From NCBI GenBank assembly GCA_002701845.1, contig NZXG01000050.1, forward strand, positions 124,001-188,000: a DNA stretch of 64,000 nt, read 5' to 3'. The notes below the pieces were generated by a model that was not told where the DNA came from, ran no database searches, and saw nothing but the letters and a program-made list of their open reading frames with translations. This document shows positions 9,459-56,512 of this stretch, piece by piece. A program made the translations under genes and the position numbers. Numbering within the stretch: the stretch's first letter is position 1; the number at the start of each line of letters is the position of its first letter. Source of the stretch: Pseudomonadales bacterium (GTDB taxonomy: Bacteria > Pseudomonadota > Gammaproteobacteria > Pseudomonadales > Ketobacteraceae).

Positions 9459-9568
9459 CTGTAGCGGGGACCCGGCGGCGAGCGGTTGTCAACAGCTTAA
9501 GGAACTTTTCATCCTGCTTGAAGATGTTGTTATAAGTTATTGATTATGGAATAAGACGCCCGTAAGTG

Positions 9569-9590
9569 TTTGATTTTAAAGAAAATCAAA
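9569..9590. repeat. perfect 9-bp inverted repeat, AT-rich
   Basis: Arms TTTGATTTT and AAAATCAAA flank a 4-base loop (AAAG). It lies 110 bases after the phasin stop. No T-run follows directly on either strand beyond the arm itself, so it is not a classical terminator; it could be an operator. Confidence 0.6.
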
Positions 9591-9737
9591 TCAGGTTATA
9601 ATTTAATCAATCTGTTGAGGTGGCAGTCATGATGGCAATTTCAGGACATTGTCACCAAAGCATCCACAGAGTTGTCCACAGAAAATGTTGATAACTTTCG
9701 CAGTGTTTTGCCGGCACTCGGTGCCACCCAAATTCTG

Positions 9738-9755
9738 TGTTGGCAAGGGCCAACA
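9738..9755. repeat. perfect 7-bp inverted repeat upstream of the Sel1 gene
   Basis: Arms TGTTGGC and GCCAACA flank AAGG. The element lies about 70-100 bases ahead of the Sel1-repeat gene and could be an operator or an RNA hairpin in its leader. No known regulator consensus is matched. Confidence 0.55.
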
Positions 9756-9824
9756 ATGGGAGTAGGCTATGCCGCCAATGTGCACGAGGGTGCGCAGGAC
9801 AGTTCGTAGTGATGACAGCGGTCA

Positions 9825-10289: not shown

Positions 10290-10314
10290 CCCCGCACACC
10301 ATGCCGGGGTCTTT
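10290..10314 (+). terminator. weak terminator-like hairpin after the Sel1 gene
   Basis: CCCCG at 10290-10294 can pair with CGGGG at 10305-10309, followed by TCTTT. The stem is only 5 bp with a 10-base loop, so it is a weak candidate. Confidence 0.3.
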
Positions 10315-10382
10315 GACTCCGGCTGAGTCTGCGGTTAATCTCCCATCCCAATACAATTCAATTCCGTCGAACTGGGAACCCC

Positions 10383-11252: not shown

Positions 11253-11363
11253 GCGCGAGCATTCTTTTTCGTCACTGTCCAGGGTATTGCGGCGGGTCAG
11301 CTCGCACCCGCTGATGCTTTGTTATCATTGAACAATTAACCTCGGCAAAACACGGGTGTAGCA

Positions 11364-12668
11364 GTGAACAGCTCAGATCCCGGCAGCGGGCCAGGGAGGC
11401 TCCCTCCGGAGACCGGCGGACCGTCCCTGCCCCAGGGAACCGATGCAGGTTTATCCCCATCAGACCCAACTCCCCGGCATTATGCCAGCCGTGGGCGCTT
11501 GCGCTTTGTGCCGGACCTGGAACGCCGGTACCAGCGTTATCGTCAATTGCGGGATGGCCGCTATGTCCGCCAACTGATCAATCTGTTAATCGCTTTTTAT
11601 ATTCTCTTCGGTGCCTTTGATTGGTTGTTGCTACAGCAGCAGGTGGAGAGGGTTCTGGTCATTCGTTACGGTCTGGGGCTGCCGGGAATGCTGGGGCTGT
11701 GGCTGGTGCTGCACACCGGCCGGCGGCTGTTGCCGGTAGAGAGGATTGTCTTTTTCAGCCTGTTCTGGTTGTCCTTCACTACCCTGTTGATGATCCGGGT
11801 GGTACCGGAGGCGTTTACCGGCCCCTATCTGCTGGGCGTGCTGGTGATTGTGATGGCCGGCATCACCGTGGGACGGATGGGCTTCTGGGTGTCGTTAAGT
11901 TTTGGGGTGCTGTTCCTGCTGAGTTTTCTGGCGGTACTGGGCCCGGTGCTGCTGGATAATGCGTTCTGGCTCTATTATCTGTTTCTCAGCTGTGGCGCCA
12001 TCGTGCTGTGCCTGCTGGCCCAGTTCACCACCGATCGTTCCGGGCGCCGCGAGTTTTTGCAGAAACTGATGATCCATCGTAAAAATCACGAACTGCGCAA
12101 ACTCAACAGTCGGTTGCGGGATCTGGCAGAAGTGGACGCGCTCACCGGGATTGCCAATCGCCGCAGCTTCGACCAGGTGCTGGAGGAGGAGTGGCGCCGG
12201 GCACAGCGCCGGGGCTACAGCCTGGCCCTGCTGATGGGTGATATTGATTTCTTCAAAGCCTATAACGATGCCCTGGGCCATCAGCAGGGGGATATCTGTA
12301 TCCGCCAGGTGGCGCAGAGTATCAAAGCCAGTGTACGCCGGCCCGGCGATATGGTGGCCCGCTACGGGGGGGAGGAATTTGCGGTGATCCTGCCGGCGTT
12401 GCAACTGAGCGAGGCGGCCACTGTGGCCCGCATGGTGTGTGATCAGGTGCGGACCCTGCGCCTGCCCCATCCCGCCTCGCCGGTGTATCCGTTTGTCACC
12501 ATCAGTGTGGGGGTGGCGGCCATGGTCCCCCAGGAGCAGCACAGCCCGGCGCAGCTGGTGGGAGCCGCCGATGAGGCCCTGTATCAGGCCAAGCGGGCCG
12601 GGCGCAACGGTATTCATCTGGGGGTAACCCCCGCTGCGCCCGACACCGAAGGCTCTGACGGGAGGTGA
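11364..12668 (+). CDS. membrane diguanylate cyclase (GGDEF domain)
   Basis: The 434-residue protein has a proline/glycine-rich cytoplasmic N-terminus (about 50 residues), six hydrophobic segments (about 72-215), a short coiled linker, and a C-terminal GGDEF domain. Catalytic features are complete: DALTGIANRRSF at the domain start, DIDFFKAYND with GHQQGD, and the active-site loop RYGGEEF near residue 337. An inhibitory I-site RPGD lies five residues ahead of GGEEF, so feedback inhibition by c-di-GMP is expected. It should make c-di-GMP from two GTP. The GTG at 11364 is the only start that keeps the whole frame; a later start cannot be excluded because the first 50 residues look poorly conserved. 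Confidence 0.9.
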   Translation: MNSSDPGSGPGRLPPETGGPSLPQGTDAGLSPSDPTPRHYASRGRLRFVPDLERRYQRYRQLRDGRYVRQLINLLIAFYILFGAFDWLLLQQQVERVLVIRYGLGLPGMLGLWLVLHTGRRLLPVERIVFFSLFWLSFTTLLMIRVVPEAFTGPYLLGVLVIVMAGITVGRMGFWVSLSFGVLFLLSFLAVLGPVLLDNAFWLYYLFLSCGAIVLCLLAQFTTDRSGRREFLQKLMIHRKNHELRKLNSRLRDLAEVDALTGIANRRSFDQVLEEEWRRAQRRGYSLALLMGDIDFFKAYNDALGHQQGDICIRQVAQSIKASVRRPGDMVARYGGEEFAVILPALQLSEAATVARMVCDQVRTLRLPHPASPVYPFVTISVGVAAMVPQEQHSPAQLVGAADEALYQAKRAGRNGIHLGVTPAAPDTEGSDGR

Positions 12669-37870: not shown

Positions 37871-38563
37871 ATGAAAACGATTTTGATCACTGGCACCAAT
37901 CGCGGACTGGGCCTGGAGTTTACCCGACAATATCTGCAGGAGGGGCAGCGCGTGATTGCCACCGCGCGGCAACCGGAAGCGGCGGCGGAACTGCAGGCGT
38001 TGCGGGAGTCTTATCCCGATACACTGACCCTGCAGGCTTTGGATGTCACGGATCCGGAGTCCCGTGAGGCCCTGTCCGAAGCGGTGGGTGACCGGGTGAT
38101 TCACCTGTTGATCAATAACGCCGGTTACTACGGCGCCAGTAATGAATTGGGCAAACTGGATCAGGACGAGTGGGGCAAAGTGTTTCTGATCAACTGTATC
38201 GCCCCAATCAAAATGGTGGAGCTGCTGCGCTCCAATCTGGTGAATGCCGGCAGCGCCACGGTGGCGTTGTTGAGCAGTAAAATGGGCTCCATCGCCGACA
38301 ACGGTTCCGGTGGCAAATATGCTTATCGCAGTTCCAAAGCCGCTCTGAACGCCGCCGCCAAGTCACTGGCCATTGATCTGGCGACAGAGCAGATCAAGGT
38401 GGTGGCATTGCACCCCGGATGGGTGCAAACCGACATGGGTGGGCCGAACGCGTTAATCGACGCCAAAACCTCCATCACCGGCATGCGAAAGGTGATCGCC
38501 GGGCTCAAAGCCAGCCAAAGCGGTGATTTCATTGGTTACGATGGTACCTTGATTCCCTGGTAA
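37871..38563 (+). CDS. short-chain dehydrogenase/reductase (C-factor-like SDR)
   Basis: The 230-residue protein has the SDR cofactor motif TGTNRGLGLEF near residue 8, NNAGYYG, and the catalytic YRSSKAAL (about residue 152) with a Ser upstream. It falls in the CsgA/C-factor-like SDR group, whose substrates are mostly unknown. The ATG at 37871 is preceded by GGAAGGGCAGGG. The stop codon shares one base with the apbE start, so the pair are coupled. Confidence 0.88.
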   Translation: MKTILITGTNRGLGLEFTRQYLQEGQRVIATARQPEAAAELQALRESYPDTLTLQALDVTDPESREALSEAVGDRVIHLLINNAGYYGASNELGKLDQDEWGKVFLINCIAPIKMVELLRSNLVNAGSATVALLSSKMGSIADNGSGGKYAYRSSKAALNAAAKSLAIDLATEQIKVVALHPGWVQTDMGGPNALIDAKTSITGMRKVIAGLKASQSGDFIGYDGTLIPW

Positions 38564-39558
38564 TGGGTGTGCGCGGTTATGGCTTCACGGGCTATGGGTT
38601 CTGGCTGTTACTGGTTTGGCTGATTCCGGCGGCGGCCCATGCCCGGTGGTTCGAGCAGACACAGCCCATTATGGGGACCCGGGTCTACGTCCAGTTATGG
38701 CATGAGGATGCGGCCCGGGCGGAAGCGCTAATCAACCAGGTGATGGCGGAGATGGAGCGCATCAATCAGTTGATGAGCCCCTACCTGGAGCATTCGCAGC
38801 TGGCGCGGGTCAACCGGGAGGCGGCGCAACAGCCGGTAGCCGTCAGCCCGGAACTGTTCGAACTCATTGCCACCGCCAATCGCTTCAGCGCCCTCAGTGA
38901 TGGCGCGTTCGATATCACTTTCGCTTCCCTGGGACACCGCTTCAACTACCGCAAAGGTGTGCGTCCCTCGCCGCAGCAGGCTAAAACGGCCCGGGAGCTG
39001 ATAGACTACCGACAATTGCAACTGAATCCTGACCGGCACACCGTGGGGTTTGCCCGTGCCGGCATGCGCATCGATCTGGGAGGCATCGCCAAGGGTCATG
39101 CGGTGGACCGGGGCATTGATTTGCTGCGCCGTGCCGGAGTGAAACATGCCATCATCACCGCCGGAGGCGACAGCCGGTTGCTGGGGGATCATCGGGGGCG
39201 ACCCTGGATTCTGGGTATCAAACATCCCCGGGGAGAGAGTTCGGTGATGAAGCTGCCCCTGGAAAACGTCGCCATTTCCACCTCCGGGGATTACGAGCGT
39301 TATTTCGAAGTGGACGGCGTTCGCTATCACCACATTATTGATCCCGCCAGTGGTGACTCCGCCCGGGGCCTGATCAGTGTTTCCATTCTGGCGCCCCGGT
39401 CCCTGGAGGCGGATGCACTGTCCACTACGGTGTTTGTGCTGGGCGCTGAGCAGGGCCTGAAACTGATCAACGGCATGCCAGGGATATCGGCCATACTGAT
39501 CGATCACAATGGCCAGATAACCTATTCAAACGATCTGGTGGATCCTTCCGCCCCTTGA
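38563..39558 (+). CDS. apbE: FAD:protein FMN transferase (ApbE family)
   Basis: The 331-residue protein begins with a signal-like hydrophobic segment ending AAAHA. ApbE features follow: MGTRVYVQLW, DLGGIAKGHAVDRGID, ITAGGDSRLLGDHRGRPW and HHIIDPASGDSARG, the FAD/Mg-binding region. ApbE moves FMN from FAD onto threonine residues of flavoproteins such as the NqrBC or RnfDG subunits. No Nqr or Rnf genes are in the window, so its target is elsewhere. The leading segment fits a periplasmic or lipid-anchored location without a clear lipobox cysteine. Confidence 0.92.
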   Translation: MGVRGYGFTGYGFWLLLVWLIPAAAHARWFEQTQPIMGTRVYVQLWHEDAARAEALINQVMAEMERINQLMSPYLEHSQLARVNREAAQQPVAVSPELFELIATANRFSALSDGAFDITFASLGHRFNYRKGVRPSPQQAKTARELIDYRQLQLNPDRHTVGFARAGMRIDLGGIAKGHAVDRGIDLLRRAGVKHAIITAGGDSRLLGDHRGRPWILGIKHPRGESSVMKLPLENVAISTSGDYERYFEVDGVRYHHIIDPASGDSARGLISVSILAPRSLEADALSTTVFVLGAEQGLKLINGMPGISAILIDHNGQITYSNDLVDPSAP

Positions 39559-39655: not shown

Positions 39656-42088
39656 ATGAATTCGTCACTGACGGTATACAACCCCATCGACGCGGGTTTA
39701 CATTGCCCCAACTATGTCTTTGTTGCTGATCAGCATCGGCAAAGAATTCTCTGCTCCACCCTCAGCGCCCCCGGGGATCTGTTGAGCCCGGAAACCACCG
39801 GGCCGGATCTATATCAGGCCCATGTGCTGGTGCCGGCCTGTCCGATCCTGCAATTGCGCAGCATTAATGAAGATCTGGTGGATGCAATGATCCGCTCCCA
39901 TGAGGCTGCCGAAGGGCAACTGTTCCGGTTTCGGGACGAGGCAGGATACTGGCGTTTTGGCCTGTTGGAAGTGGTGCCCCTCTATGCCGGTGAAACAGGT
40001 CAGCAGCAGTACCTGTGTGCAGTGATTTCCCGGATCCAGAACCCGGCGTCGATCCCGTCTCAGGATCAGCCGGTCGCGTCCCGCCTGGTATGGATCACTG
40101 ATGCGGATCTGCGGCTGAGAAAAGTGAGCGGCGATTGTCGCGCGCTGGGGTTTGATTTGCCCACCCTGCTGGCGGCGGGCAAACCGAGTTTCTTGACCGC
40201 GGAAACCAGTGACTTTCTCAGTGCTGTGTGTCAGGAGCTGCTCACTGGTAAGTCACCGGAGCCCCGGGTTCTGCGGCAGACCCTGCGCAGTCTGGATGGC
40301 AACGCCTTGTCCGCCAATATCCAACTGTCCTTACTGTTTGATGAGCGCAGCCGGATTACGGGTATTCTGGGAATCGCAGAGTTCTTTCCCAGCCGGGAGC
40401 TATTGGACAGTGAGCGGCAGCTGTTTTCCGCCACTTTTGATGCCGTGTCGGAAGGGTTGTTTATCACCGATCGTAGCGGTTTTATCCTGCGGGCGAACCC
40501 GGCGTTTTACGCCATGACCGGTTACAGCCGCAAACAACTGTTGGGCATCCACTGCAGTCAGATCTGGCGCGGCCGCTATGGTCCGGAGTTTTTCCGTCAA
40601 ATCCGGCACAGTCTGCAGCGCAACAGACACTGGCGGGGGGAATGCGAATTTGTGCGCCGGGACGGCGAACCCTGTCCCGCCATCCTGAGTTTCAGTCAGA
40701 CCTATAATCTGCGACAGGAGGTGCAGAATTATGTGGGATTGCTGATGGACATTGCCGAAAAAAAGCGCGACGAATCCCGTATCTACCGTCTGGCTCATTT
40801 CGATTCCCTCACCGGAGTGGCAAACCGCCATCTGTTCAATCAGCGACTGCATCAGGCGGTCGCCGCGGCCAGACAGGGCCCCAATGCCGTGGCAGTGTTG
40901 TTTTTGGACATGGACCGCTTCAAACCGGTGAACGATTCTCTCGGCCACAGTGCCGGGGATCAACTGTTGAAGGCGGTGGCGCAGCGCCTGATGTACTGTC
41001 TGGCGGAAGGCGATACGGTTGCGCGTATGGGGGGTGATGAATTTGCCCTGATTCTGGCGAATGTGGCCCCGGCTGAAGTGGAGCAGACCGCCATCAAGAT
41101 GGCCTCCCGGGTGCTGGCGCAGTTCTTTGCCCCATTCCTGATTGAAGGTCGGGAGGTGATCTCCTCCTGCAGCATCGGTATTAGTCTGTTTCCCCATCAC
41201 GGCAGCAGTGCCGAGATTCTTCTGCGCAGCGCGGACACGGCCATGTATGCCGCGAAGCGGGCTGGCAAAAACAATTACCAGTTTTATGACGACGCCATGA
41301 ATCAGCGGGCCATGGACCGTTTGCTGATGGAGAATGCCATGCGCAAAGCGCTGGTGCGGGAGGAGTTTGAGCTGTTCTTTCAGCCCCAGTATTCCCTGGT
41401 GACGGGCGCTCTTACGGGCATTGAGGTGTTGTTGCGCTGGGATCATCCGGTGTTCGGTTCGGTCCGACCCCTGGAATTTATCGACCTGGCGGAACAGACG
41501 GATTTGATCATTCCCCTGGGGGAGTGGGTATTTCAGCAGACCTGCGAAAAAATCCGGCACTGGCAGCAGCAGGGCGTGGCGTTTGCCAGGGTGGGGATTA
41601 ATGTATCGGTAAACCAGTTCAAACGGGATGACTTCGCCGACTGGGTGTTGTTTCAGGTGCAGCGTTACGGGGTGAATCCGGGCTGTCTGGAGCTTGAAAT
41701 CACGGAAAGCGCCCTGATGGAGGATGTGGAACACAGTCTGCAACTGCTGCGCAAACTGCAACAGGCGCGCATCCGCATTGCGGTGGATGATTTCGGCACC
41801 GGTTATTCATCGTTAAGCTATCTGCGGAAATTTCCCATCAGCACCCTGAAAATAGATCGTCTGTTTATTGAGGATATTGTTGATAACCACGACACGTTGC
41901 AATTGGCTCAGACTGTGATTGCCATTGGCAAAAGCCTGGACCTGGGGGTGATCGCCGAAGGGGTGGAAACCTGGGAGCAGTACCAGTTATTGAAGCAGCA
42001 AGGCTGTGATGAGGTGCAGGGCTATTACCTGAGCCGGGCCGTTGCGGAACCCCAGTTGCTGGATCTGGTGGCCAGCACCAGTGACTAG
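39656..42088 (+). CDS. PAS-GGDEF-EAL c-di-GMP signalling protein
   Basis: The 810-residue protein has no membrane helix. The first 250 residues are of unrecognised type, followed by a PAS-like domain (about 255-375, FDAVSEGLFITDRSGFILRANPAF), a GGDEF domain (about 380-540, ARMGGDEFAL near 458) and an EAL domain (about 555-800). The EAL signature is written EVLLRW (EVL), and the other phosphodiesterase residues are present: NVSVNQF, ELEITESALM, DDFGTGYSSL, LKIDRLF and AEGVETWEQ. Both halves could be active, with net direction set by the PAS signal. An upstream promoter was not found. ftsH-like gene follows after about 55 bases. Confidence 0.93.
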   Translation: MNSSLTVYNPIDAGLHCPNYVFVADQHRQRILCSTLSAPGDLLSPETTGPDLYQAHVLVPACPILQLRSINEDLVDAMIRSHEAAEGQLFRFRDEAGYWRFGLLEVVPLYAGETGQQQYLCAVISRIQNPASIPSQDQPVASRLVWITDADLRLRKVSGDCRALGFDLPTLLAAGKPSFLTAETSDFLSAVCQELLTGKSPEPRVLRQTLRSLDGNALSANIQLSLLFDERSRITGILGIAEFFPSRELLDSERQLFSATFDAVSEGLFITDRSGFILRANPAFYAMTGYSRKQLLGIHCSQIWRGRYGPEFFRQIRHSLQRNRHWRGECEFVRRDGEPCPAILSFSQTYNLRQEVQNYVGLLMDIAEKKRDESRIYRLAHFDSLTGVANRHLFNQRLHQAVAAARQGPNAVAVLFLDMDRFKPVNDSLGHSAGDQLLKAVAQRLMYCLAEGDTVARMGGDEFALILANVAPAEVEQTAIKMASRVLAQFFAPFLIEGREVISSCSIGISLFPHHGSSAEILLRSADTAMYAAKRAGKNNYQFYDDAMNQRAMDRLLMENAMRKALVREEFELFFQPQYSLVTGALTGIEVLLRWDHPVFGSVRPLEFIDLAEQTDLIIPLGEWVFQQTCEKIRHWQQQGVAFARVGINVSVNQFKRDDFADWVLFQVQRYGVNPGCLELEITESALMEDVEHSLQLLRKLQQARIRIAVDDFGTGYSSLSYLRKFPISTLKIDRLFIEDIVDNHDTLQLAQTVIAIGKSLDLGVIAEGVETWEQYQLLKQQGCDEVQGYYLSRAVAEPQLLDLVASTSD

Positions 42089-46220: not shown

Positions 46221-48374
46221 TCAGTCTTCGGTAAAAATCCGTTGGATCACTTCCTGCAGGGTCTGGGCCGGGGGCTGGCCGCCGGTGGCCGGCGCCGGCC
46301 CGTTACTGTCCAGCTCCAGGTTCAAGCCCTGTTCCTGCGCCTGCTGACGCTCCCGTTCCTGCATATAGCCGCGATCCTGCAGCCGGGCGATGGACAGCAG
46401 CGCTTTGGCGCGCATACCATCCAGCTGCTGCTGCTGATTATCGACGATGGCACTGGCGGTGGCTTGCATGCGGGCCCGTTGCTGGCGCAACTGGCGCCCG
46501 GTATCCGATTTCAGGGCGGTGAGTTTCTCCCGCAGATTCTGGATCCGGGTTTCGAAACCGTAAAAACGGTTCAGACCGTTTTCGCGGGCGGCGCTTAGGG
46601 CGCGAATGCGGGTTTCCATTTCCAGCAACAGGTTGTTGAGGGTGGTCTGCTGTTTACTGGCCTCCCAGCGTTTGTCCACCGCGGTGGCGTTCAGATCCCA
46701 CATCAGCAGGCCCTGCAGCAGTTCCAGTTTCTCCCATTCCTCCCAATACTGATCCCGGTCACCCAGGGCCTGAAGCCTGGCCTCGAGGGCGTCCAGCCGG
46801 GCCTTCTGATTGATCTGTTCCGCATTGGCCAGCCCCATCAGGTCATCGTTGGCCACAATCTCGCTCAGGCGGGATTCGAATTCATCCAGTTTCACCCGGG
46901 AGTAGGCGTAGAAAGAACGGGCCTGATCAACGGCCTGCTCTGACTGCGGTGCCAGTTCGTCCAGGCGGGTGACGTGGGTGTTGATCATTTCATAAAAACT
47001 GGGGAATTGGCGCTCCCAGTGGGTCAACACCATGTACAGTCGTTGCAGTTCCCGATAGTCCTGATACAGGCGCTGGAATTCGTTGCTGGCGAAGTAACGG
47101 TAGAGGTGTTCACTGGATGGATCGGTCGCCGGCAGTTCGAAGGGGGGTGGGGCATCCATCACCCCCTGGCCCGACAGGTCCACCGGACTGATGCGCTCGA
47201 TCCAGTCGGGGCGCTTAATGTCCTGCTTGACGCTTTCCAGACGCCGGCGCTGATTGAGAAAAATCTGGTAGGCGGATTGATACCCGTCCAGTGCGTCCTG
47301 CAGGGCTCCCAGTTGTTCAAACACATAGGGCACATTGAGCAGGCTCTCCTGCACGGCGGGATCTGTCAGCGAACGCTCGTTGAGCTCCAGCCAGGGGGTC
47401 AGTGCATCCTGCTGGCGTTGCGAGCGGAAATGGGTCCAGCCCAGGGCCAGCAGACCGCGGTTGGCCACCGGACCGTACAGGCGGATCTGCTCCAGCGTCT
47501 GGCGGGCAAGCTGCAGTTGGTCATTACGCAGATAGTGGATGCCCAGGGCCAGTGCGCTGCGATCCAGCAGGGTTTTGTCCACTTCGTTCTGAGGGTTCTG
47601 ATACTCCGCCAGAATGTCACTGAAAATATCCGCCGCCCGTCGCGGTTGACCCAACTGGGTCAGGGCCGTGCCCATATTAAACCGTACCAGCAGGCTCTCG
47701 GCGGGATCCAGCTTCAAGTAGGGCGTCAGGGCCTGGGCCTGATCCACGTTACCCAGTCGCACCTGACACAGAATCTGCAGCAGCAGGTACTCGGCGGGGC
47801 GGGCTTCCCGGGGTTGCTGAATACGGGATTCCAGGATTTCCAGGGCGTGGGCGGCATGGCCGCGCTGGTAGTGAATCCGTGCCAGTTGGTACCAGGCTTC
47901 ATCGGCGCCCGCAGCGCTGGAATAGTCGGCCAGCAACTCCCGAAAGATGGCTTCGCCCTGATCCAGCAATCCATAGGACACATACAGTGCGCCCAGCACC
48001 AGTTGCGCATGTTCATTGTTGGCATCCAGCAGGCCGCGCTCCCGGGCCACCATGACCTGAGTGATGGCGGAGAAGTAGTGTTGCTGATAATACTCGAACA
48101 GCACATCCCCATAGGCCAGGTCCGCCACCGCATGGGGTTGATCGATGGGTTGCGGCTGGCGGGGAGGCGGCGCGGACGCTGCCGGTGCATCGGCATCTCC
48201 GCTGCCCCACCAGCCAAACAGATCCAGGGCCCGGGCCGGCTGGGCCGGCAGCAGCCAGCAGGCCGCCACCAGCAACAGGCACAGGACGCTGTGCCGGGTG
48301 CACCGGCAGCGGGACTTGTCAATCAGGCTGTCAGGCTTGCAATTCAAATTCGAGATCCCCTGTCTCACTCCCAC
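46221..48374 (-). CDS. large exported TPR/coiled-coil protein of the envelope-motor cluster
   Basis: The 717-residue protein has a signal sequence in an unusual position: a 28-residue basic stretch precedes the hydrophobic LCLLLVAACWLLPAQPARA, so the true start may be later. Helical TPR-like repeats run from about residue 85 to 330, and long coiled coils from about 480 to the end. It is predicted to be periplasmic. It overlaps the upstream gene by 10 bases and is the most distal of the cluster. In layout it resembles TPR proteins of Agl/Glt-type machines; a specific orthologue is not claimed. Confidence 0.85.
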   Translation of the reverse strand: MGVRQGISNLNCKPDSLIDKSRCRCTRHSVLCLLLVAACWLLPAQPARALDLFGWWGSGDADAPAASAPPPRQPQPIDQPHAVADLAYGDVLFEYYQQHYFSAITQVMVARERGLLDANNEHAQLVLGALYVSYGLLDQGEAIFRELLADYSSAAGADEAWYQLARIHYQRGHAAHALEILESRIQQPREARPAEYLLLQILCQVRLGNVDQAQALTPYLKLDPAESLLVRFNMGTALTQLGQPRRAADIFSDILAEYQNPQNEVDKTLLDRSALALGIHYLRNDQLQLARQTLEQIRLYGPVANRGLLALGWTHFRSQRQQDALTPWLELNERSLTDPAVQESLLNVPYVFEQLGALQDALDGYQSAYQIFLNQRRRLESVKQDIKRPDWIERISPVDLSGQGVMDAPPPFELPATDPSSEHLYRYFASNEFQRLYQDYRELQRLYMVLTHWERQFPSFYEMINTHVTRLDELAPQSEQAVDQARSFYAYSRVKLDEFESRLSEIVANDDLMGLANAEQINQKARLDALEARLQALGDRDQYWEEWEKLELLQGLLMWDLNATAVDKRWEASKQQTTLNNLLLEMETRIRALSAARENGLNRFYGFETRIQNLREKLTALKSDTGRQLRQQRARMQATASAIVDNQQQQLDGMRAKALLSIARLQDRGYMQERERQQAQEQGLNLELDSNGPAPATGGQPPAQTLQEVIQRIFTED

Positions 48375-49138
48375 TGCTTGAGCCGGAAGCCCGGTTGCTG
48401 GCGCAGATCATCGCCCTCAATCTTCAGTTCGATATATTTGGTGCCGCTGGTTTTCTCAAAGGCCAGGCTCACCGCTCTTTTGTAATCCCGTCCCGACGGC
48501 CCCACGCCGGTTACCACGGCCACCAGCTCATGCTCACCCACCGGCAGGTTGCCGGTAAATAAACGCTGCACCGCGCCGCGGTTCATGGCTTTCAGCTCCC
48601 GCTCGGTATATAGATGATTGCTGATGGGGCGGTCGTTGATTTTCAGGCTGACGCCGTCCAGCTGAAAGTATTCCAGGGCGTCGTAGGAAACGAAGACATT
48701 GACCTGAGTGCTGCTGGGAAACAGCAGATCCTCTTCCAGGATGAACAGGTCGCGGTTCACCTGCAGGATTTTTTCTTTGAGGTCCTGCATTTCCTGTTGC
48801 ATGGTTTCCGGGCCTTTTTCCGCAACGGCTTCTTCGGCGGCTCCTTCCCCCGCGCCGCCGCCATAGAGAATCTGATTGAGATCGACAAATTCGCCCTCTT
48901 CTTCCGCGGTGGGCGCCTCAGAGGCGGGCTCCGCGTCGACACTGGTGGCGGGACCGGATTCCTCCGCATCCAGAATCTCATCGATTTCGATATATTCCAG
49001 ATCCTCCTCCAGTTGCAGATCGACAGTGTCGTCCGCCGGCTCGGCCCTGACCAGGGTGCAAAGCACCAACAGCAGCAGTGCCGGCAGCCATAAAGTCCAG
49101 ATTTGATGGGTCGCGTTCATGTGCTTCGCTTTACTCAT
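48365..49138 (-). CDS. exported acidic protein of the envelope-motor cluster
   Basis: The 257-residue protein begins with a signal sequence (TLWLPALLLLVLCTLVRA, preceded by MSKAKHMNATHQ) and is followed by a very acidic region (about 60-110), a coiled coil (residues about 115-145, MQQEMQDLKEKILQVNRDLF), and a C-terminal beta-domain with FVSYDALEYFQLDGVSLKIND and RDYKRAVSLAFEK. It is not recognised as a named family. The ATG at 49138 has AGG upstream; 49120 is an alternative. It lies 10 bases after the TlpA-like gene and overlaps the TPR gene by 10. Confidence 0.82.
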   Translation of the reverse strand: MSKAKHMNATHQIWTLWLPALLLLVLCTLVRAEPADDTVDLQLEEDLEYIEIDEILDAEESGPATSVDAEPASEAPTAEEEGEFVDLNQILYGGGAGEGAAEEAVAEKGPETMQQEMQDLKEKILQVNRDLFILEEDLLFPSSTQVNVFVSYDALEYFQLDGVSLKINDRPISNHLYTERELKAMNRGAVQRLFTGNLPVGEHELVAVVTGVGPSGRDYKRAVSLAFEKTSGTKYIELKIEGDDLRQQPGFRLKQWE

Positions 49139-49148
49139 AGGGTTTCGC

Positions 49149-49646
49149 CTACTCGGATACCAGCTGTTGCAGCAGGGCGTCGAACCGGGCCACGTCGGCC
49201 GGATCAAAGCCATCCTGCAGGTGTCGGATCTTGCCATCCCGATCCACAATAAAAGACGAGGGAAGATCGCCGATGTCGTAACGTTCACTTACTAGAAAAC
49301 TGTCATCATACAGCAGGGTAAGATCCAGCCCCTCGTGGCGCCGATAGTGATCGGCCTTGTCCCGGTTTTCGTCCAAACTGACGGCCCATACCTTCAGCCC
49401 GCGCTCCGCGTACTTGTCCTGTAACGCGGCCAGCGCCTCCAGTTGCCCCGGACAGGAGCGGCACCAGCTGGCCCAGAACACCACCGCCACCACATAGCCC
49501 TTTTGCTCCGACAGGCGCAGATTATAGGGGCCGTCGCTGTGCAGCGTGAAGTCCGGCGCCTGATCTCCCAGCGGCGGCTTCTTGGCGAATACCGGTGTGG
49601 CCGCCAGGGTCAGCATCATGAGCAAAGTGCCAAGGGTGCGCAACAT
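49149..49646 (-). CDS. TlpA/ResA-type thioredoxin-like protein, exported
   Basis: The 165-residue protein has a signal peptide (ending ATPVFAK), then a TlpA-like thioredoxin fold with APDFTLHSDGPYNLRLSEQKG, the redox site WCRSCPGQ (about residues 61-68), and VWAVSLDENRDKADHYRRH. It should reduce or shuffle disulfides in the periplasm. The gene is embedded in the motor cluster, with 17 bases to the TonB-like gene. A thioredoxin inside a TolQR/TonB-like cluster is unusual and suggests that a cluster protein needs disulfide control; this is inference. Confidence 0.9.
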   Translation of the reverse strand: MLRTLGTLLMMLTLAATPVFAKKPPLGDQAPDFTLHSDGPYNLRLSEQKGYVVAVVFWASWCRSCPGQLEALAALQDKYAERGLKVWAVSLDENRDKADHYRRHEGLDLTLLYDDSFLVSERYDIGDLPSSFIVDRDGKIRHLQDGFDPADVARFDALLQQLVSE

Positions 49647-49663
49647 ATCAACTGGCTCCGGGG

Positions 49664-50596
49664 TTACGATGGGATGAAGGAGATGGGATAAGTATCACGC
49701 CATACCTCCACATTCTTATCGCCGAAATTGATCCGCTGCACCCGCAGTACGATTTTTCGTTCCAGGTCCGGGTCGTTCAATTCACTGCTGACCACCTCGC
49801 AGCGGGTAACCTCGCCGTTGGGTTGAATTTCCAGGCGCAGCACCACGGTGCCCTCCAATGCAGGGTTTTTGCGCAACGCCCGGCGATACAGGGAGTAAAT
49901 CGCTCCTTTGTGGCGATCGAACACCAGTTGGATATCCTCGGTGGAACGGCGGGCTTTGCCATCGGCGCTGCGTCGTTTCTGCTGTTCCGCAGCCGGATCG
50001 GCGATCTGGCTTTCCACACTGGTGGTTTGCACGCCAGCCAGGTTACCGGAACCACCGCCCCCGGAACTGGCGCGGGAGGTACTCACGCCGCCGCTGCCGC
50101 CGGCGGCCATATTGCCCACCAGATTGCGCCGGGTCTGCTCCTGCTGGGCACCGGTGGCATTAACTGATTGTTGCTCGGTTTTCAGGTCCGCCAGATCATT
50201 GGTGTCCCGCAGATCGCTGAGATCATCGAACACGGCAATGGCCGCTTTGGCCCGTTCTTTGGCTGTGGGCTTGGGTTTTTCCTCCGGTTTGGGTTCCTCT
50301 TTTTTCGGCTCTTCCTTTCTCGGTTCCTCTTTAACCTCTTCCTCTTTCTTTTCCTCTTTCGGCGGAGGTGGCGGCGGAGGCAGTGGCTGGCGTTTTTCCA
50401 TCACCAGTTTGGCCAGGCGGGGCGGCACCCGTTCCACCTGTTCCCGTTGCTTTTCGGGTACCGGAATATTGGGAATCACCAGCACCATGATCAGAAAGAT
50501 GACGAAGAAAACCATCACCATCTTGCGAAACAGTTTTTCCTCTTCGGCGGCACGATCCCAGGGCAGACTGGGAGTGGAATAATACATGGGTTTCAT
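49664..50596 (-). CDS. TonB-like protein with AgmX/PglI C-terminal domain
   Basis: The 310-residue protein has one membrane helix (about residues 24-45, MVMVFFVIFLIMVLVIPNIPV), a long proline, lysine and glutamate-rich stalk (about 70-130, PPPPPPPKEEKKEEE), a glycine/serine region, and a C-terminal beta-domain with EDIQLVFDRHKGAIYSLYRRAL and LEIQPNGEVTRCEVVSSEL (parts). This domain matches the AgmX/PglI C-terminal family of the Myxococcus gliding machine rather than classical TonB. The stalk would cross the periplasm. It overlaps exbD2 by four bases. Confidence 0.88.
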   Translation of the reverse strand: MKPMYYSTPSLPWDRAAEEEKLFRKMVMVFFVIFLIMVLVIPNIPVPEKQREQVERVPPRLAKLVMEKRQPLPPPPPPPKEEKKEEEVKEEPRKEEPKKEEPKPEEKPKPTAKERAKAAIAVFDDLSDLRDTNDLADLKTEQQSVNATGAQQEQTRRNLVGNMAAGGSGGVSTSRASSGGGGSGNLAGVQTTSVESQIADPAAEQQKRRSADGKARRSTEDIQLVFDRHKGAIYSLYRRALRKNPALEGTVVLRLEIQPNGEVTRCEVVSSELNDPDLERKIVLRVQRINFGDKNVEVWRDTYPISFIPS

Positions 50597-51102
50597 GATG
50601 GCTTGTCCTCCGTCTGCTTGAGAACCGCCAACGAAATCCGCGAATATTCATTCTTGCTGCAGGTCATCATGATCTTGCGCAACAGCGCGTAAGGAATCTC
50701 CCGGTCACCCATGATGGTCACGTCCCGCTCCGGTATGCCCTGTTCGTTGACCACCAGGGCCGGTGCCTTGCTGGCCTGGTATTGCAGCTCCTGCGCCAGG
50801 CTGGGGATATTGTCATCGGGCAGTGCCAGTACCTTGTTGACGTCCGCCACGATCCGACCGTTCACCAGAATGGTGTTTTCATTCACCATAATGGTCAGGG
50901 TTTCCCGGGGCAGTTGCTCGGCAATGGATTTCGGCAACTGAATGGATTTCTGATTGGGCAATTGGGTGGTGTTGGAGGAATTCACCAGCAGGAAGAATAC
51001 CAGGATGGTGAAAATGTCCATCAACGACACCATATTAATGGCGGGCGTGAACTGCCGCTTGTGACGCCGGTCCATGCGCTTGGCGCGATGGGAAAGCTTC
51101 AT
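50593..51102 (-). CDS. ExbD/TolR-like motor subunit with intact membrane Asp
   Basis: The 169-residue protein has a basic N-terminal tail, one membrane helix (about 24-43) with INMVSLMDIFTILVFFLL, and a periplasmic domain. Asp29 in the helix matches the essential aspartate of ExbD (D25), TolR and MotB that carries protons. It overlaps the upstream ExbD gene by four bases and the TonB-like gene by four. Together with the TolQ-like protein it should form a proton-driven motor. It differs from the partner ExbD, which has Asn at this place. Confidence 0.92.
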   Translation of the reverse strand: MKLSHRAKRMDRRHKRQFTPAINMVSLMDIFTILVFFLLVNSSNTTQLPNQKSIQLPKSIAEQLPRETLTIMVNENTILVNGRIVADVNKVLALPDDNIPSLAQELQYQASKAPALVVNEQGIPERDVTIMGDREIPYALLRKIMMTCSKNEYSRISLAVLKQTEDKPS

Positions 51103-51653
51103 ACGGCACCTCCCCGCAGCGCAGTCTGCATGGCGCTGTTCTGAGAAGTGTTCTGGCGATCCGGGGGGGCATCGCCGATGGCGATATCCGGAAACAGTTC
51201 TGCTTTGACGGTTTCGGTACCTACCACCTGGTCAGTGACGCGCACCTTGTCCATAGTGGTCACCAGCACCTCGTAGGGCGTGTTGGCCTCCAGCAGCAGA
51301 GTGATCTCGGTTATGTCCGGGAACCGGTTTTTCACCGCTTTCAGGGTTTTCACCAGGGTCGCGTAGTCGTATTGGGTGCCGTTGTTGGGAATAATCTTCA
51401 GTGGTCCTGTCTGACGGTCGACCACCTCCAGACGGTTTTTGTAAATCAACACTTCCAATACGATGGGCTTCTTGTCTTCCTGTTGCTGCTCCTGCGCCGG
51501 GGTGGTGGCCGGCAGGTTCAGTTCCAGAATGGAAATCTGCGAAAACACCGCCGTGATCAGCAGAAACGGCACCAGCACCACCATCAGATTCATGAAGGCG
51601 GTGATGTTGATGTCTGCGTCGGCGTTCTGTCTTCGCCGTGAGCGTCTACTCAT
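51099..51653 (-). CDS. ExbD/TolR-like subunit with Asn in place of the conserved Asp
   Basis: The 184-residue protein has a short basic N-terminus and one membrane helix (about 15-34) reading INITAFMNLMVVLVPFLLIT, where Asn22 aligns with ExbD Asp25. The periplasmic region follows with LEVLIYKNRLEVVD and ITLLLEANTPYEVLVTTMDKVR. The overall form is ExbD/TolR. The Asp-to-Asn change should stop it from carrying protons itself, so it may be a structural partner in a mixed ExbD dimer. The gene follows the TolQ-like gene by 42 bases and overlaps the next ExbD by four. Confidence 0.9.
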   Translation of the reverse strand: MSRRSRRRQNADADINITAFMNLMVVLVPFLLITAVFSQISILELNLPATTPAQEQQQEDKKPIVLEVLIYKNRLEVVDRQTGPLKIIPNNGTQYDYATLVKTLKAVKNRFPDITEITLLLEANTPYEVLVTTMDKVRVTDQVVGTETVKAELFPDIAIGDAPPDRQNTSQNSAMQTALRGGAV

Positions 51654-51695
51654 AAGGGCTCCTGCTCAAACGTATTCGATGGCTGGTTGCCGGGC

Positions 51696-52391
51696 TTAGC
51701 CCTGGTTGTTGCTTTGGGCCTTCTGGCTTTGAGCCTGACGGAATACGTTGAGGAATTTAACAGAGGCCATCTCCATGCTGTCGATCAGTTGGTTGGTCTT
51801 GTTCTGCAGATAGGTAAATGCCAGCAGCAGGGGAATGGCCGCCATCAAGCCGAACGCCGTGGTGTTCATGGCCACGGAAATACTGGCTGACAGCAGGTCC
51901 GCCTTTTGCGCCGGATCGGCACTGGCCACCGCGGTGAAGGCGTTGATCAGACCCATGATGGTACCCAGCAGCCCCAGCAGGGTGGCAATGTTGGCGAAGG
52001 TGGCAATGTAGTTGGTACGTCGCTCCAGATGAGGAATGGCCTCCATCAAACCTTCCTCCATGGCCATTTCCACTTCGTCGTGACGGCTGGCATAGGCACT
52101 GCGGGATAGCCCGTATACCAGAATCTTGGCCACCGCGCTGCCGGAGTTTTTGGCTTCCTCCATGGCGGACTTGAATTTGCCCTGGGTCAGCAGCGGAAAC
52201 AGTTTCTTCCACACCATCTGGTTACGGGTCTGGGTGAGGTTCAGATAAATGAAGCGTTCCAGGGTAATGGCCAGACCCACCAGGAACACCGCCAGTATGA
52301 TATACATAAAGGGGCCTCCCTCCTGGAAGAACTGGGCCATGGTGGTGATCAGGCCGGTGCTTTGCTCCGCGGCATTCACTGTGTCAGACAT
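51696..52391 (-). CDS. TolQ/ExbB/MotA-like proton channel subunit
   Basis: The 231-residue protein has three membrane helices: about 24-46, 128-150 and 172-192. The family residues are present: NIATLLGLLGTIMGLINAF and ISVAMNTTAFGLMAAIPLLL, carrying the conserved threonines of the proton path. Helix order and length are those of ExbB/TolQ. With two downstream ExbD-like genes it should build a proton-motive-force-driven rotary motor. No ordinary TonB, TolA or TolB genes are adjacent. Confidence 0.94.
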   Translation of the reverse strand: MSDTVNAAEQSTGLITTMAQFFQEGGPFMYIILAVFLVGLAITLERFIYLNLTQTRNQMVWKKLFPLLTQGKFKSAMEEAKNSGSAVAKILVYGLSRSAYASRHDEVEMAMEEGLMEAIPHLERRTNYIATFANIATLLGLLGTIMGLINAFTAVASADPAQKADLLSASISVAMNTTAFGLMAAIPLLLAFTYLQNKTNQLIDSMEMASVKFLNVFRQAQSQKAQSNNQG

Positions 52392-52456
52392 GCTGGTCTC
52401 CTGCGTTACCCAATAACGATGTTAGTGCTCGTAGTTTCAGTATTGTTCAAATCAGT

Positions 52457-52753
52457 TTATTCACCGCCGGCACCCGGATCGGAATGCCGCAGCTGATCAA
52501 AATATTCGATTTCCCGGCGTAACTCGTCCCGGTCCACCGGCTTCAGCGAGTCATCCAGTAACTGGGAATCCAGGTTGGGCGTCGCCGTCCAGGGGTCCAC
52601 TGCCAGTTCCCGGTTTTGCCAGGGCACCACGTTCAGTACATTGGGCGCCTCTTTACTGCCTATGATGTTGGTGCCTTCATCCAGGGCCCACAGATTCGTA
52701 CCCGGGGCCGAGATCATGGCACAAACCAACAGGCTTTTGACAACTTGGTTCAT
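52457..52753 (-). CDS. small exported protein of the envelope-motor cluster
   Basis: The 98-residue protein has a signal peptide (MNQVVKSLLVCAMISAPGTNLWA) and a short mature part with GSKEAPNVLNVVPWQNRELAVDPW and an acidic C-terminus. No family is recognised. The start overlaps the upstream lipoprotein gene by four bases, and the TolQ-like gene follows 65 bases below, so it is part of the transcript. It is likely periplasmic. Confidence 0.75.
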   Translation of the reverse strand: MNQVVKSLLVCAMISAPGTNLWALDEGTNIIGSKEAPNVLNVVPWQNRELAVDPWTATPNLDSQLLDDSLKPVDRDELRREIEYFDQLRHSDPGAGGE

Positions 52754-53574
52754 GGTGCGCGCTCCGCTCGCCGCTCCAGTTCAATGATCCAGCGGCCCAC
52801 GGTTTTATCCGGTTCCGGGATCAGTGCCTGATATTGTTTGAATTCCTTCAGGGCCAGCTCAGGATCATGCAGATAGAGGTCCGCCAACACCGCTAAATTA
52901 TAGTGGGCCGTGGCATAAGCGGCGTCGATGCGAATCGCAGATTCGTAGCTGACCCGCGCTTGCCTGAATTTTCCCAGGCGTCGGCTAATGATACCCAACT
53001 CATTGAGCAGACGGGGATTTTTTCCATGCTGTAAAAGTGAGTTCTGCAGCAGATCATAGGCTTCCTGCAGTTGACCCTTTTTTCGCAAAATAATGGCCTG
53101 GTTCACAATCGGACCCGCCAGTGCCGGATATTGCATGGCCAGATCCTGAAACCGGGCCATGGCCTGGTCAAGATCATTGTTGCGCATGCTGGCGATAGCC
53201 CGATTGAAATCGGAACGGGCCAGTTCCGCCTGTTTTACCTGGGCCGGGTCCCGGGTCACCGGCTCACCCTGTTGCAGGCGCCGCAACACCGCTGCGGAAT
53301 CCGCATCCTGAATCCCGGCGCTGTCCGCCGGGGGGGGCGGTGTACCCTCTGTTTCCGGGGCTGATGCCTCAGGGCCTGTTGCTTCAGGGGCTGTGGCCGC
53401 TGCCGGTTCCTGCTTGTCGGGGGGCGTTGCCACCGGCTCACCCAGATCGATGCTGACCGATTCCGGCATGGTGAAATCCTCACTCTCGCCACTGCCTTTC
53501 TGGCCCAGGGCGCAACCCCCAAGCACCAGTACCAGTGCGGGCACCAACAGGTGACTAGTAAATCTCATCCACAT
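52750..53574 (-). CDS. TPR lipoprotein (AglT/GltE-like) of the envelope-motor cluster
   Basis: The 274-residue protein starts with a lipoprotein signal (VLVLGGCAL, cysteine at about residue 21), then an alanine/proline/glutamate-rich linker (about 40-90), and tetratricopeptide repeats (about 125-265) including AMARFQDLAMQYP, AYDLLQNSLLQHGKNPRLLNELGI, and ARVSYESAIRIDAAYATAHYNLAVL (parts). It is a likely outer-membrane-anchored scaffold, comparable in layout to AglT/GltE. It overlaps the large upstream lipoprotein gene by 20 bases. Confidence 0.87.
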   Translation of the reverse strand: MWMRFTSHLLVPALVLVLGGCALGQKGSGESEDFTMPESVSIDLGEPVATPPDKQEPAAATAPEATGPEASAPETEGTPPPPADSAGIQDADSAAVLRRLQQGEPVTRDPAQVKQAELARSDFNRAIASMRNNDLDQAMARFQDLAMQYPALAGPIVNQAIILRKKGQLQEAYDLLQNSLLQHGKNPRLLNELGIISRRLGKFRQARVSYESAIRIDAAYATAHYNLAVLADLYLHDPELALKEFKQYQALIPEPDKTVGRWIIELERRAERAP

Positions 53575-56512
53575 AGTCCTCGGTCAGTTCCTGTTTCGCG
53601 TAGCGCCCGGGGGAGAGTTTGGCCAGGGATTCGTAAGTCTTCTGAATCCATTGATCCCAGAACCCTTCCAGGGTGCGCTCGGTATTGGTCTTGAAGATGG
53701 CGATAGCCTTGTCCTCAAACGGATACGCCTGTTCTTCCAGCAGAATGTCGTATTCCTCCAGCGCCAGTTCGTCCAGGCCCTTGGGTCGCTCGCTGTCCAT
53801 AATGCTACGGGCGAACAGGCGGTTCACTTCCCCCAGTTTGTGGTTGGCGGCGGTGGTGAAGTCAATCACCCCGAACTGCACCGTCGTGGTATAAGCCTGG
53901 GTGGCTTTCTGCATCGCGGCTTTTTTCTTGCGCAGACTGGTTTTCAGCGGCTGGGTCAGGCGGATGCTGCGGAAGTCGGCGAACAGGGCGTCGGCCCCGT
54001 GGTAGCTGCCGTAAGCCGCCAGATAACGGGTACGGTCACTTTGTTCCGCGCCGGCGGCTCTGTGAGTGTCCACCAGTTTATTGAGCCAGAAGTAGCGCTT
54101 GTTGCTGTCGCCCAGTTTCTGATACAGCTCGGTAAGCTTGTACTGAGCTTCCATGCGCGGCGCTACCGGCCGTTCATAACCCCAGACAAAATTTTTGTAC
54201 AGCTCCACGGCGCCACTGAGATCGCCGGTCTGCTCCCGCATCTCCGCCGCCTGCAACAGCGCCTCCCGGGCCAGTTCCGGATTGCTGTCCTGGTTCAGGT
54301 TGGCAATGATCAACAGCTCGTCGGCCGCCCGGGCCAGATTGCCGGTTTGCTGATAGGCCATGCTCAGCTTGGCCGGCACGCTGGCGCCCAGTTCATGGCC
54401 CGGGAAACGTTGGCGGAAATCCTCCAGCACGGCGATGGCCCGGTCGTAGTCTTTCAGTTGCAGCAGCAGATTGGCGGCGTCATAGTCGGCATTGGCCCGC
54501 ACCGAGGCATTGGGCACCACGGCGGCCACCCGCAGGTATTCGCCGGCCGCCTCCGCCAGGCGACCTTCCTGTTCCAGCTGTTCACCCTGTTTGTAAATGG
54601 CAGTGGCCAGATTCTCCTCGAAGCGGTTGCGCTGGGCGGGTTTCAGCGTGCGGAATTCCAGCACCTTGCGAATGGCCTGTTCCGCCGCCGCCCAGTCACC
54701 CTTGTCGAACATGCCATTGGCATAAGTGATCCAGGCTTTTTCCCGCAGTGCCTGGGGTGCCGGGGGTACCAGTTCAATGATCAGCTGGGCGGTGACGATG
54801 GCACCTTCGATATCCCCCAATAGCAACTGATCCTCAATCACATTGTCCAGAACCTGAGGCGTGTTCTCGTTGGCCGGGTAGGCCTTGGCGAAACGCAGGG
54901 AGCTGCCGGCCCGTTTGGCAATCCAGCCTCGACGGGTGGGATCATCCGCTGCCAGGGTGTTGAGATATTCCTGGTAGGCCAGCAGGGCAAAATAGGCGGC
55001 CTTTTCCGCATCCGGGTGGGGCGGATAATCGTAAGCCGTGCGCTCGAACTCCTCGATGGCCGGGCGAAAATCCCTGGCGGCAAACAGGGTTTCGCCCAAC
55101 AGCATGTTCATCATTGGGGCGCTTTCATCGTTGGGGAAGGTGGCCAGGAATTCCCGGTACCAGCGGGCGGCGGAGCCATAATCCTGCGGCTGTTTGCTGG
55201 TCTGGGCCAGGGCATGATAATGCTGGGCCAGTTCGATCAGGTGCTGCTTTAGCTCGGCTTCATATTGGGCCCGGGCTTCCGGCGTGGCCCGGGCCCAGAA
55301 AGCGCTGTACACTCCGTACTGATCCACGAACTTTTCCTTGTAGGGCAGCACCAGGCTGGGGAAGCCGCCTTTTTGATAGGTGTCGATCACCCGGGAGGAC
55401 ATGGAGGGCGCCATGGGATGCAGCGGATTCTTCTGCGAGAACATGGCGAAGGTATCCGCCGCATCCTTGAACCGTTCCTGATACAGATACAACTCCGCCA
55501 GCGCGGCATAGACCATGTATTCGTAAATACGATTGCCCTGTTCGCGGAAATAGCGGGCCACGCTCTCCGAACCCTCCAGGTTGGAGAAGGACATACTCAG
55601 TACCCGCAGGGTGTCATCCAGGGTTTTCTGCTGGGTGTCGCTCACCTCCGGCAGGGGCACCGCCTCGATTTTGGTGATGGTGCGCTCCTTGCGCTCTGCC
55701 GCCAGCTCCGCCTCGGTTTTGGGCGGTGGGGTGGGCATGTAGATATCCAGCAGGGTGACGAAGTCCGTCACTGCCAGGTCATAATCCCCCAGCTTGTAGA
55801 GGCTCCAGCCGTGTTTATACAGGGAGTGTTGGTAGAATTCCCGTTCCGGCCCTGCCTGCAGTACATATTGATACGCATCGGCCGCCCCCTGGTATTGTCC
55901 CAGCAGAAATAACTGTTCACCACGACGGAACTGGGCTTCATAGGTGAACTCGCCATCGGGGTACTTGCGCACCAGGGTATTTAGGGTGTCCAGCGCCTGT
56001 TCCGGCTGACCGTTGAGGTCATAGGCCTTGGCCAGCAGGTAATATTCCTCCGACAGATCGCTGCCCGGGGGGGCACTGTCTATCAGTGACTGGTACATGG
56101 CCACGGCATTGTCGTATTGCAGGGCCTCGGCGGCAGCGTCCGGTGAATCCACCTGGGGGGTCTCTTCCAGGCTGGTGATCAGGCGGTCTTCGGTGGCCAC
56201 CATGGTCAGATCCGCCATCCGGCGCAGGGCCAATGCCCGTTGCTCCCGGGTGGAAAACAGGGCGACCGCCTCTTCGTAGGTGGCCAGTACCTGTTCCGGC
56301 GGCACCGGTTCCAGCTGTTGTTGCCGCACCGCGATATCCCGCCCCTTGAGATCCGCCAGGGTGGGGTCGGAACGCCCAGCGCTGTACCCGCCATCGCTGG
56401 AACAGCCGGCCAGCGCCAGTGCCCACAGCAGCGAGCAGGCGGACACAGCAGCAAAAACCTTGCGCCGGTAAATTTGTCTGAACGTTTTACTCACTACGTC
56501 ACAACCTGGCAC
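53555..56512 (-). CDS. large TPR lipoprotein of the envelope-motor cluster
   Basis: The 985-residue protein has a lipoprotein signal (LLWALALAGCSSDGG, cysteine near residue 36) and is made almost wholly of helical TPR-like repeats, for example YLLAKAYDLNGQPEQALDTLNTLV, AADAYQYVLQAG and DYDRAIAVLEDFRQRFPGHELG (parts). Several clear repeats carry the ALDxL-x-YP pattern. It should be anchored to the outer membrane and act as scaffold. The frame starts at GTG 56512; a GTG at 56494 is an alternative. It is the first gene of the cluster. Confidence 0.88.
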   Translation of the reverse strand: MPGCDVVSKTFRQIYRRKVFAAVSACSLLWALALAGCSSDGGYSAGRSDPTLADLKGRDIAVRQQQLEPVPPEQVLATYEEAVALFSTREQRALALRRMADLTMVATEDRLITSLEETPQVDSPDAAAEALQYDNAVAMYQSLIDSAPPGSDLSEEYYLLAKAYDLNGQPEQALDTLNTLVRKYPDGEFTYEAQFRRGEQLFLLGQYQGAADAYQYVLQAGPEREFYQHSLYKHGWSLYKLGDYDLAVTDFVTLLDIYMPTPPPKTEAELAAERKERTITKIEAVPLPEVSDTQQKTLDDTLRVLSMSFSNLEGSESVARYFREQGNRIYEYMVYAALAELYLYQERFKDAADTFAMFSQKNPLHPMAPSMSSRVIDTYQKGGFPSLVLPYKEKFVDQYGVYSAFWARATPEARAQYEAELKQHLIELAQHYHALAQTSKQPQDYGSAARWYREFLATFPNDESAPMMNMLLGETLFAARDFRPAIEEFERTAYDYPPHPDAEKAAYFALLAYQEYLNTLAADDPTRRGWIAKRAGSSLRFAKAYPANENTPQVLDNVIEDQLLLGDIEGAIVTAQLIIELVPPAPQALREKAWITYANGMFDKGDWAAAEQAIRKVLEFRTLKPAQRNRFEENLATAIYKQGEQLEQEGRLAEAAGEYLRVAAVVPNASVRANADYDAANLLLQLKDYDRAIAVLEDFRQRFPGHELGASVPAKLSMAYQQTGNLARAADELLIIANLNQDSNPELAREALLQAAEMREQTGDLSGAVELYKNFVWGYERPVAPRMEAQYKLTELYQKLGDSNKRYFWLNKLVDTHRAAGAEQSDRTRYLAAYGSYHGADALFADFRSIRLTQPLKTSLRKKKAAMQKATQAYTTTVQFGVIDFTTAANHKLGEVNRLFARSIMDSERPKGLDELALEEYDILLEEQAYPFEDKAIAIFKTNTERTLEGFWDQWIQKTYESLAKLSPGRYAKQELTEDYVDEIY

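Follow-up and report, generated by a model that had tools for sequence, protein, structure and literature searches.

The core complex of the Agl/Glt machinery in gammaproteobacteria consists of seven clustered genes, aglR, aglQ, aglS, gltC, gltD, gltE, and gltG, with one extra gene (Luciano et al. 2011, PMC3169522), and was called standalone machinery in 2013 (PMC3858216); in the passages of both papers on these genes, its function was unknown. The AglRQS-Glt gliding and Nfs spore-coat machines of Myxococcus xanthus also combine a motor with a TPR scaffold and act on an adhesin or polymer load; the passages describing them do not mention a cassette of flavin, heme, and TlpA proteins. In Fibrobacter succinogenes, a TolQ/ExbD/ExbD/TonB set (FSU_2400-2403) similar to an Agl-type core motor has a higher abundance on cellulose according to the relevant passage of PMC6851124. 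Gene clusters of DUF3570, ApbE, DUF4266 ending in CxC, and a thioredoxin-like protein were described by Meheust et al. (2021, PMC8238504), and the passages on flavinylation in that paper present DUF3570 as a substrate of ApbE in another bacterium; a word search of its main text found no mention of ExbB or gliding.

The window analyzed in this study is a stretch of 64,000 nucleotides from a Pseudomonadales bacterium (Ketobacteraceae). It contains a minus-strand operon of ten genes at 46221-56512, with intergenic spacings of -20 to +65 nt when the start of g09 is taken as 49120, which is probably correct rather than 49288. All ten tightly packed ORFs described in an earlier sequence-only reading were recovered at the same positions, together with the lipoprotein and motor features that it had named: two lipoboxes, recognized by eye in the g01 and g02 sequences, one MotA_ExbB domain, two ExbD domains, and an AgmX/PglI C-terminal domain. 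The largest product, g01 (53555..56512; 985 aa), is a GltD-like TPR lipoprotein, and is followed by g02 (52750..53574; 274 aa), a GltE-like TPR lipoprotein, and g03 (52457..52753), an exported protein of 98 aa with a conserved IIG..EAPNVLNVVPW-type segment. The motor genes are g04 (51696..52391; TolQ/AglR-like channel subunit), g05 (51099..51653; ExbD1) and g06 (50593..51102; ExbD2), both AglQ/S-like subunits, and g07 (49664..50596), a TonB-like GltG-type transducer carrying the AgmX/PglI domain. A TlpA/ResA-like thioredoxin with a CxxC motif (g08; 49149..49646), an exported acidic protein (g09; 48365..49120), and a GltC-like TPR/coiled-coil protein (g10; 46221..48374; start codon uncertain) complete the operon. 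Pfam identified g01, g02, and g10 as TPR proteins, while g03 and g09 matched no known family in a search of domain and family profiles. The predicted fold of g09 comprised a signal helix, a disordered acidic region, a long helix, and a beta sandwich modeled with confidence; since no PDB entry matched it at an E value of 0.001 or better, no function was drawn from the structure. No RNA element was detected in the window at Rfam gathering thresholds.

The operon is the gammaproteobacterial Agl/Glt core complex with three extra genes (g03, g08, and g09), whereas the passage on this complex in PMC3169522 mentions only one; common to both are the clustered TolQ-like protein, two ExbD-like proteins, GltG-type TonB-like protein ending in AgmX/PglI, and TPR proteins. 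The sequence-only reading of the cluster as Agl/Glt-like was therefore borne out by its fit to the published gammaproteobacterial gene set, a comparison of gene content that involved no M. xanthus sequence. The AgmX/PglI C-terminal model (NF033768) matched g07 with 67.5 bits (cut-off, 40), and of the group A gliding proteins GltF, GltH, GltI, GltJ, and GltK, only GltJ gave a match besides GltG among the operon proteins scanned, also on g07 (30.3 of 450 bits). Since g02 scored 30.7 bits against the GltE model (NF033758), below the cut-off of 225, and no match to the GltC and GltD models was listed among the profile results, these three counterparts are putative, having been assigned by size, TPR content, and gene order.

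Of 12 stretches from genomes of this GTDB family, 9 carried all ten genes in an identical order, the remaining three (L030, L032, and L034) being cut by contig ends. A profile search with ExbD2 detected the core in 84 of the 369 class genomes, including that of the window. The comparison of neighborhoods across gammaproteobacteria that the sequence-only reading had proposed gave a ten-gene unit recurring in the family and a core present in part of the class. The best-scoring 80 loci from a profile search of contigs, which are not a random sample, are referred to below as named loci; ORFs in these neighborhoods were taken from stop to stop, and one 3-kb contig (L222) was dropped or of limited use. 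The motor genes g04-g07 were complete in 77 of the 80, and the TPR genes accompanied them widely: g01-g07, g09, and g10 were all present in 51, and many of the remaining loci were truncated at the end of a contig. The order g09-g10-g01-g02-g03-g04-g05-g06-g07 was the most common among these complete loci (43/51), and the permuted order of the window's family was found in seven. Five loci (L105, L115, L148, L181, and L188) had reduced sets of g04-g07, with the TPR genes absent from the stretch, and formed one well supported clade in the motor tree described below.

The two ExbD subunits differed strictly at the channel Asp position, which was set by alignment to a solved ExbD. Of the 119 distinct ExbD1 sequences (131 rows) that have a residue at this position, 118 (130 rows) had Asn, as in g05 (Asn22), the one exception being a truncated, misaligned row; in ExbD2 (Asp29 in g06), Asp was found in 121 of 121 (133 of 133 rows). 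Distinct sequences were counted because some rows represent one genome reached twice; L030 is truncated and misaligns in this alignment, and L112 is gapped there. According to the passage on the M. xanthus motor in PMC9389320, AglQ and AglS are both predicted to carry the Asp, and whether they form hetero- or homodimers is not known; in contrast, only one of the two subunits carries it here. This split predicts that ExbD1 pairs with ExbD2 in a heterodimer with one protonatable site. A conserved His is named for TonB-/TolA-type transducers in a passage of PMC12204202, and the transmembrane helix of g07 contained His in just 9 of 132 rows.

Clustering of neighboring ORFs and family searches showed that many cores adjoin genes for ApbE, DUF4266, DUF3570, and an OMP_myx_plus (TIGR04565) barrel. 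Additional loci revealed a cassette encoding an HzsA-like lipoprotein, an SH3-barrel protein, an OMP_myx_plus barrel, TlpA, DUF4266, and DUF3570. Of 21 class loci (the window's own genome, 17 genomes with the cassette off the contig of the core, and three genomes without the core), 17 contained the whole cassette, as did 9 of 10 other loci of the family. The lipoprotein, of approximately 900 aa, has two CxxCH motifs in most copies and an HZS_alpha domain where tested, and this heme-motif protein was encoded with the cassette in 20/21 class and 9/10 family loci. All 27 DUF4266 sequences ended in GCGCN. In 17 loci, the DUF3570 and g09 ORFs shared a strand and abutted or overlapped (gap of at most 74 nt, with ORFs taken from stop to stop); eight were named loci with a full core and the motor behind g09, and nine were class loci in which only g09, g10, and, in eight of them, g01 were observed within the stretch examined, with g02 in addition in one. 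TlpA immediately preceded g09 in 33 of the 80 best-scoring named loci, with ApbE in turn preceding 18 of these 33. The arrangement barrel-barrel-...-g09-g10 resembles the gltB-gltA-gltC order of M. xanthus, with its two OmpA-like barrels (in the passage on these genes in PMC4488436). Many genomes differ from the published Agl/Glt core in adding a pair of outer-membrane barrels and a redox cassette, besides the channel-site Asn in one ExbD. The differences from the clusters of Meheust et al., as far as the passages concerned go, are the tie to a motor, the OMP_myx_plus barrels, the HzsA-like lipoprotein, and a motif that is mostly SSAS.

A second g09-g10 copy was observed after the cassette in nine loci (L209, L211-L213, L216, L217, L220, L221, and L224), in eight of them with g01; the stretches contained no motor gene, and ExbD2 was found elsewhere in eight of the nine genomes (not in G201, the genome of L224). 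In the match to HzsA, significant alignment was limited to the middle domain, which contains one heme site, while the rest aligned weakly, and hydrazine chemistry is therefore not claimed; a chemical role based on this match was rejected. The weak PDB alignment of the lipoprotein from the window's genome (L160:6205-8994) includes a TolB-like segment, and we suspect a beta-propeller in this protein.

The published flavinylation motif, [S/T]GA[S/T], was found at the aligned site in 5 of the 28 DUF3570 sequences with residues there, including that of the window's genome (SGAS); the others had SSAS or TSAS (20/28) or another sequence (3/28). The best of five models of the L145 protein (pTM 0.73; pLDDT 77.9, compared with 60-66 for the other four) had 16 barrel strands by DSSP, and Foldseek returned porin- and FadL-like structures at a TM-score of approximately 0.45. 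Its SSAS site (residues 79-82) falls where strand 3 ends, next to a loop with a pLDDT of approximately 40. The alternation of long and short turns weakly suggests that this loop faces the outer side, and the low pLDDT makes an outer-side placement of the site correspondingly weak.

In the window's genome, the cassette is located on another contig (G000:C1; L160) and encodes the HzsA-like lipoprotein (6205-8994), SH3-barrel protein (9107-9847), OMP_myx_plus-type barrel (9817-10488), TlpA (10500-11039), DUF4266 (11036-11335), and DUF3570 (11304-12515). The genome has two OMP_myx_plus-type barrels, both outside the window, with 138 and 36 bits (cut-off, 60); they are candidate counterparts of the GltB/GltA pair. 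ApbE is encoded in the window itself: a flavin transferase of the module subfamily (38563..39558, plus strand), which scored 482 bits against the module HMM, is separated from the operon by 6.7 kb, so that the ApbE, DUF3570, DUF4266, and thioredoxin-like set of DUF3570 flavinylation systems is all present in this genome. The protein was 51-55% identical to the five best module ApbEs, 48% to the median-scoring one, and 37% to the other ApbE of the genome, which scored 199 bits on the module HMM. An assignment as a mere Nqr accessory was rejected because the protein is closer to module ApbEs than to the other copy of the genome, and no Nqr gene was found among the neighbors scanned or read. A PAS-GGDEF-EAL protein (39656-42088) is encoded between ApbE and the operon region. 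Among eight genomes of the family tested, seven had a module ApbE 5.5-18 kb from the core; the exception, HdN1, a one-contig genome, retains the core and barrels and has DUF3570 nowhere. Two further family genomes (G002 and G005) have the barrel and DUF3570, yet no g07 match, perhaps due to assembly gaps.

Among the 369 class genomes, 84 had the core, 56 an OMP_myx_plus barrel above the cut-off, 95 DUF3570, and 57 HZS_alpha. The barrel was present in 52 of the 84 core genomes, spanning 30 GTDB families, but in only 4 of the 285 core-less genomes (Fisher 4e-36, a test that assumes independent genomes, which related genomes are not); the four without an ExbD2 match were 95, 86, 99, and 71% complete. 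DUF3570 was found in 56/56 and HZS_alpha in 48/56 barrel genomes, compared with 26 and 8, respectively, of the 285 core-less genomes. For 26 of the 52, core and barrel shared a contig and were no more than 22 kb apart; in genomes with the cassette on a separate contig, just 6 of 20 core loci (19 genomes) had TlpA or ApbE nearby. The barrel was absent from 32 of the 84 core genomes, 15 of which also lacked any DUF3570, indicating that redox is not the job of every core. Neither TlpA nor ApbE was found in the 20 cassette-less core stretches read (from 20 of the 32 genomes; some cut by contig ends). Two of these cores (L164 and L173) have exported proteins of approximately 2600 aa downstream of g07, possibly adhesin loads, which suggests that other loads exist. 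Another core, in a genome without OMP_myx_plus, adjoins a multiheme cytochrome (L178:2-2233) with Cytochrome_C7 and MtrC-like domains.

A tree of 125 motors was constructed with FastTree alone, and contains long branches; six family rows were labeled by hand as redox-linked. Under a strict label, which required a redox gene no more than 1500 nt away from the core, ten changes were needed, at least five of them over well supported branches; a loose label, which also counted L087 and L118, whose match lies far from the core, needed 11, at least six of them over such branches. Inheritance of the link between core and redox genes in one undisturbed clade was rejected on these grounds. The label was nevertheless clustered on the tree (0 of 500 shuffles as low), and shared ancestry thus accounts for part of the co-occurrence.

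Taken together, gene content, order, adjacency, and co-occurrence give a strong genomic association between core and cassette, to which the asymmetry of the ExbD residues is added as an observation on the motor. With about even confidence, we propose that the operon encodes a proton-driven Agl/Glt-type envelope machine with a flavin, heme, and thiol redox complex as its outer-membrane partner. In this proposal, g04 and the unlike pair g05/g06, one of which has the proton-carrying Asp, would form the inner-membrane motor, and proton flow would turn or flex it. The TonB-like g07 would transmit force over the periplasm to the TPR scaffold of g01, g02, and g10, which, with g09, would couple it to two small outer-membrane barrels resembling GltB/GltA. 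The load, in the window's genome and in most relatives examined, would be the redox complex from the partner cassette, comprising a TlpA thioredoxin, the 16-stranded DUF3570 barrel, whose Ser/Thr site may receive FMN from the ApbE encoded nearby, the DUF4266 lipoprotein with its CxC end, and the HzsA-like diheme lipoprotein; the small barrels would act on the last three. These three may pass electrons between the thiols of TlpA, FMN, heme, and a partner outside the cell, and the motor would most likely gate, position, or move the redox complex for electrons to cross the outer membrane. The assembly of these parts into one complex, the pairing of the two ExbD subunits, the attached FMN, the role of force, and the direction of electrons are what we infer from the genes. 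A more specific version, in which the core is itself an outer-membrane electron-transfer machine, with the proton motive force working mechanically by way of an asymmetric one-proton-site axle and a TonB-like arm that gate or move the flavin-heme-thiol complex for electron exchange with the outside, is possible, and is put forward only tentatively.

The same genes may be explained in other ways. A general Glt-type motor that moves adhesins or polymer for gliding, attachment, or surface polymer transport, as in Myxococcus, with the cassette riding along or serving the assembly of surface proteins, would agree with the resemblance to AglRQS/Glt in the passages on these machines (PMC3169522 and PMC4488436), with the 32 barrel-less cores and the giant exported proteins beside two of the 20 read, and with HdN1, which keeps core and barrels without DUF3570. 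The specific adjacency and co-occurrence of the core with redox and barrel genes speak against this explanation, which we find rather doubtful. The operon also shares with Tol-Pal a TolQR-like motor, a TonB/TolA-like transducer, and a YbgF-like TPR protein. The sequence-only reading had found no TonB-dependent receptor, TolA, TolB, Pal, or ybgF nearby; this held for the first four in the ten flanking genes scanned, but g01 itself exceeded the cut-off of the YbgF TPR model (TIGR02795; 112.4 vs 90.1 bits). TlpA/ResA-type proteins are often maturation reductases. With SH3 and TPR domains suited to envelope maintenance, TlpA, DUF4266, and ApbE might accordingly be maturation factors (for disulfides and cofactor insertion), and the core a Tol-Pal-like device for outer-membrane assembly or homeostasis. 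This appears unlikely because DUF3570 is itself the ApbE substrate in the passages cited above (PMC8238504), the heme-motif lipoprotein nearly always accompanies the cassette, and a Tol system might be among the further ExbB/TolQ-like and ExbD sets of the genome.

An ordinary TonB-ExbBD or Tol-Pal system is very improbable. In its favor are the MotA_ExbB and ExbD domains, together with a TonB_C match slightly under the cut-off (22.1 of 24.6 bits); however, g04 reached only 71.9 of 221 bits on the tolQ equivalog model and 43.7 of 206 on that of exbB, g05 reached 25.7 of 127.3 on tolR, and the ExbD model gave 27.3 of 123, all far below the cut-offs. The two unlike ExbD genes, one with a channel-site Asn, and the conserved ten-gene unit are also at variance with such a system, which was rejected as a candidate.

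While the core complex was already known, the link to the redox cassette, the nearby ApbE, and the ExbD Asn/Asp split appear to be new: no prior report of these was found in searches of the open-access literature, nor any paper there that connects TolQ, ExbD, gliding, AglQ, GltC, or hydrazine synthase with DUF3570 or with flavinylation. The strict split, over approximately 120 distinct sequences, is the pattern expected from a heterodimer with one proton site, and bears on the AglQ/AglS heterodimer question. A defined partner cassette is a candidate answer to what the core machine moves, and gives testable predictions; the DUF3570/DUF4266 redox clusters would gain a mechanical partner. If the proposal is true, envelope motors serve redox chemistry in addition to uptake, division, and movement.
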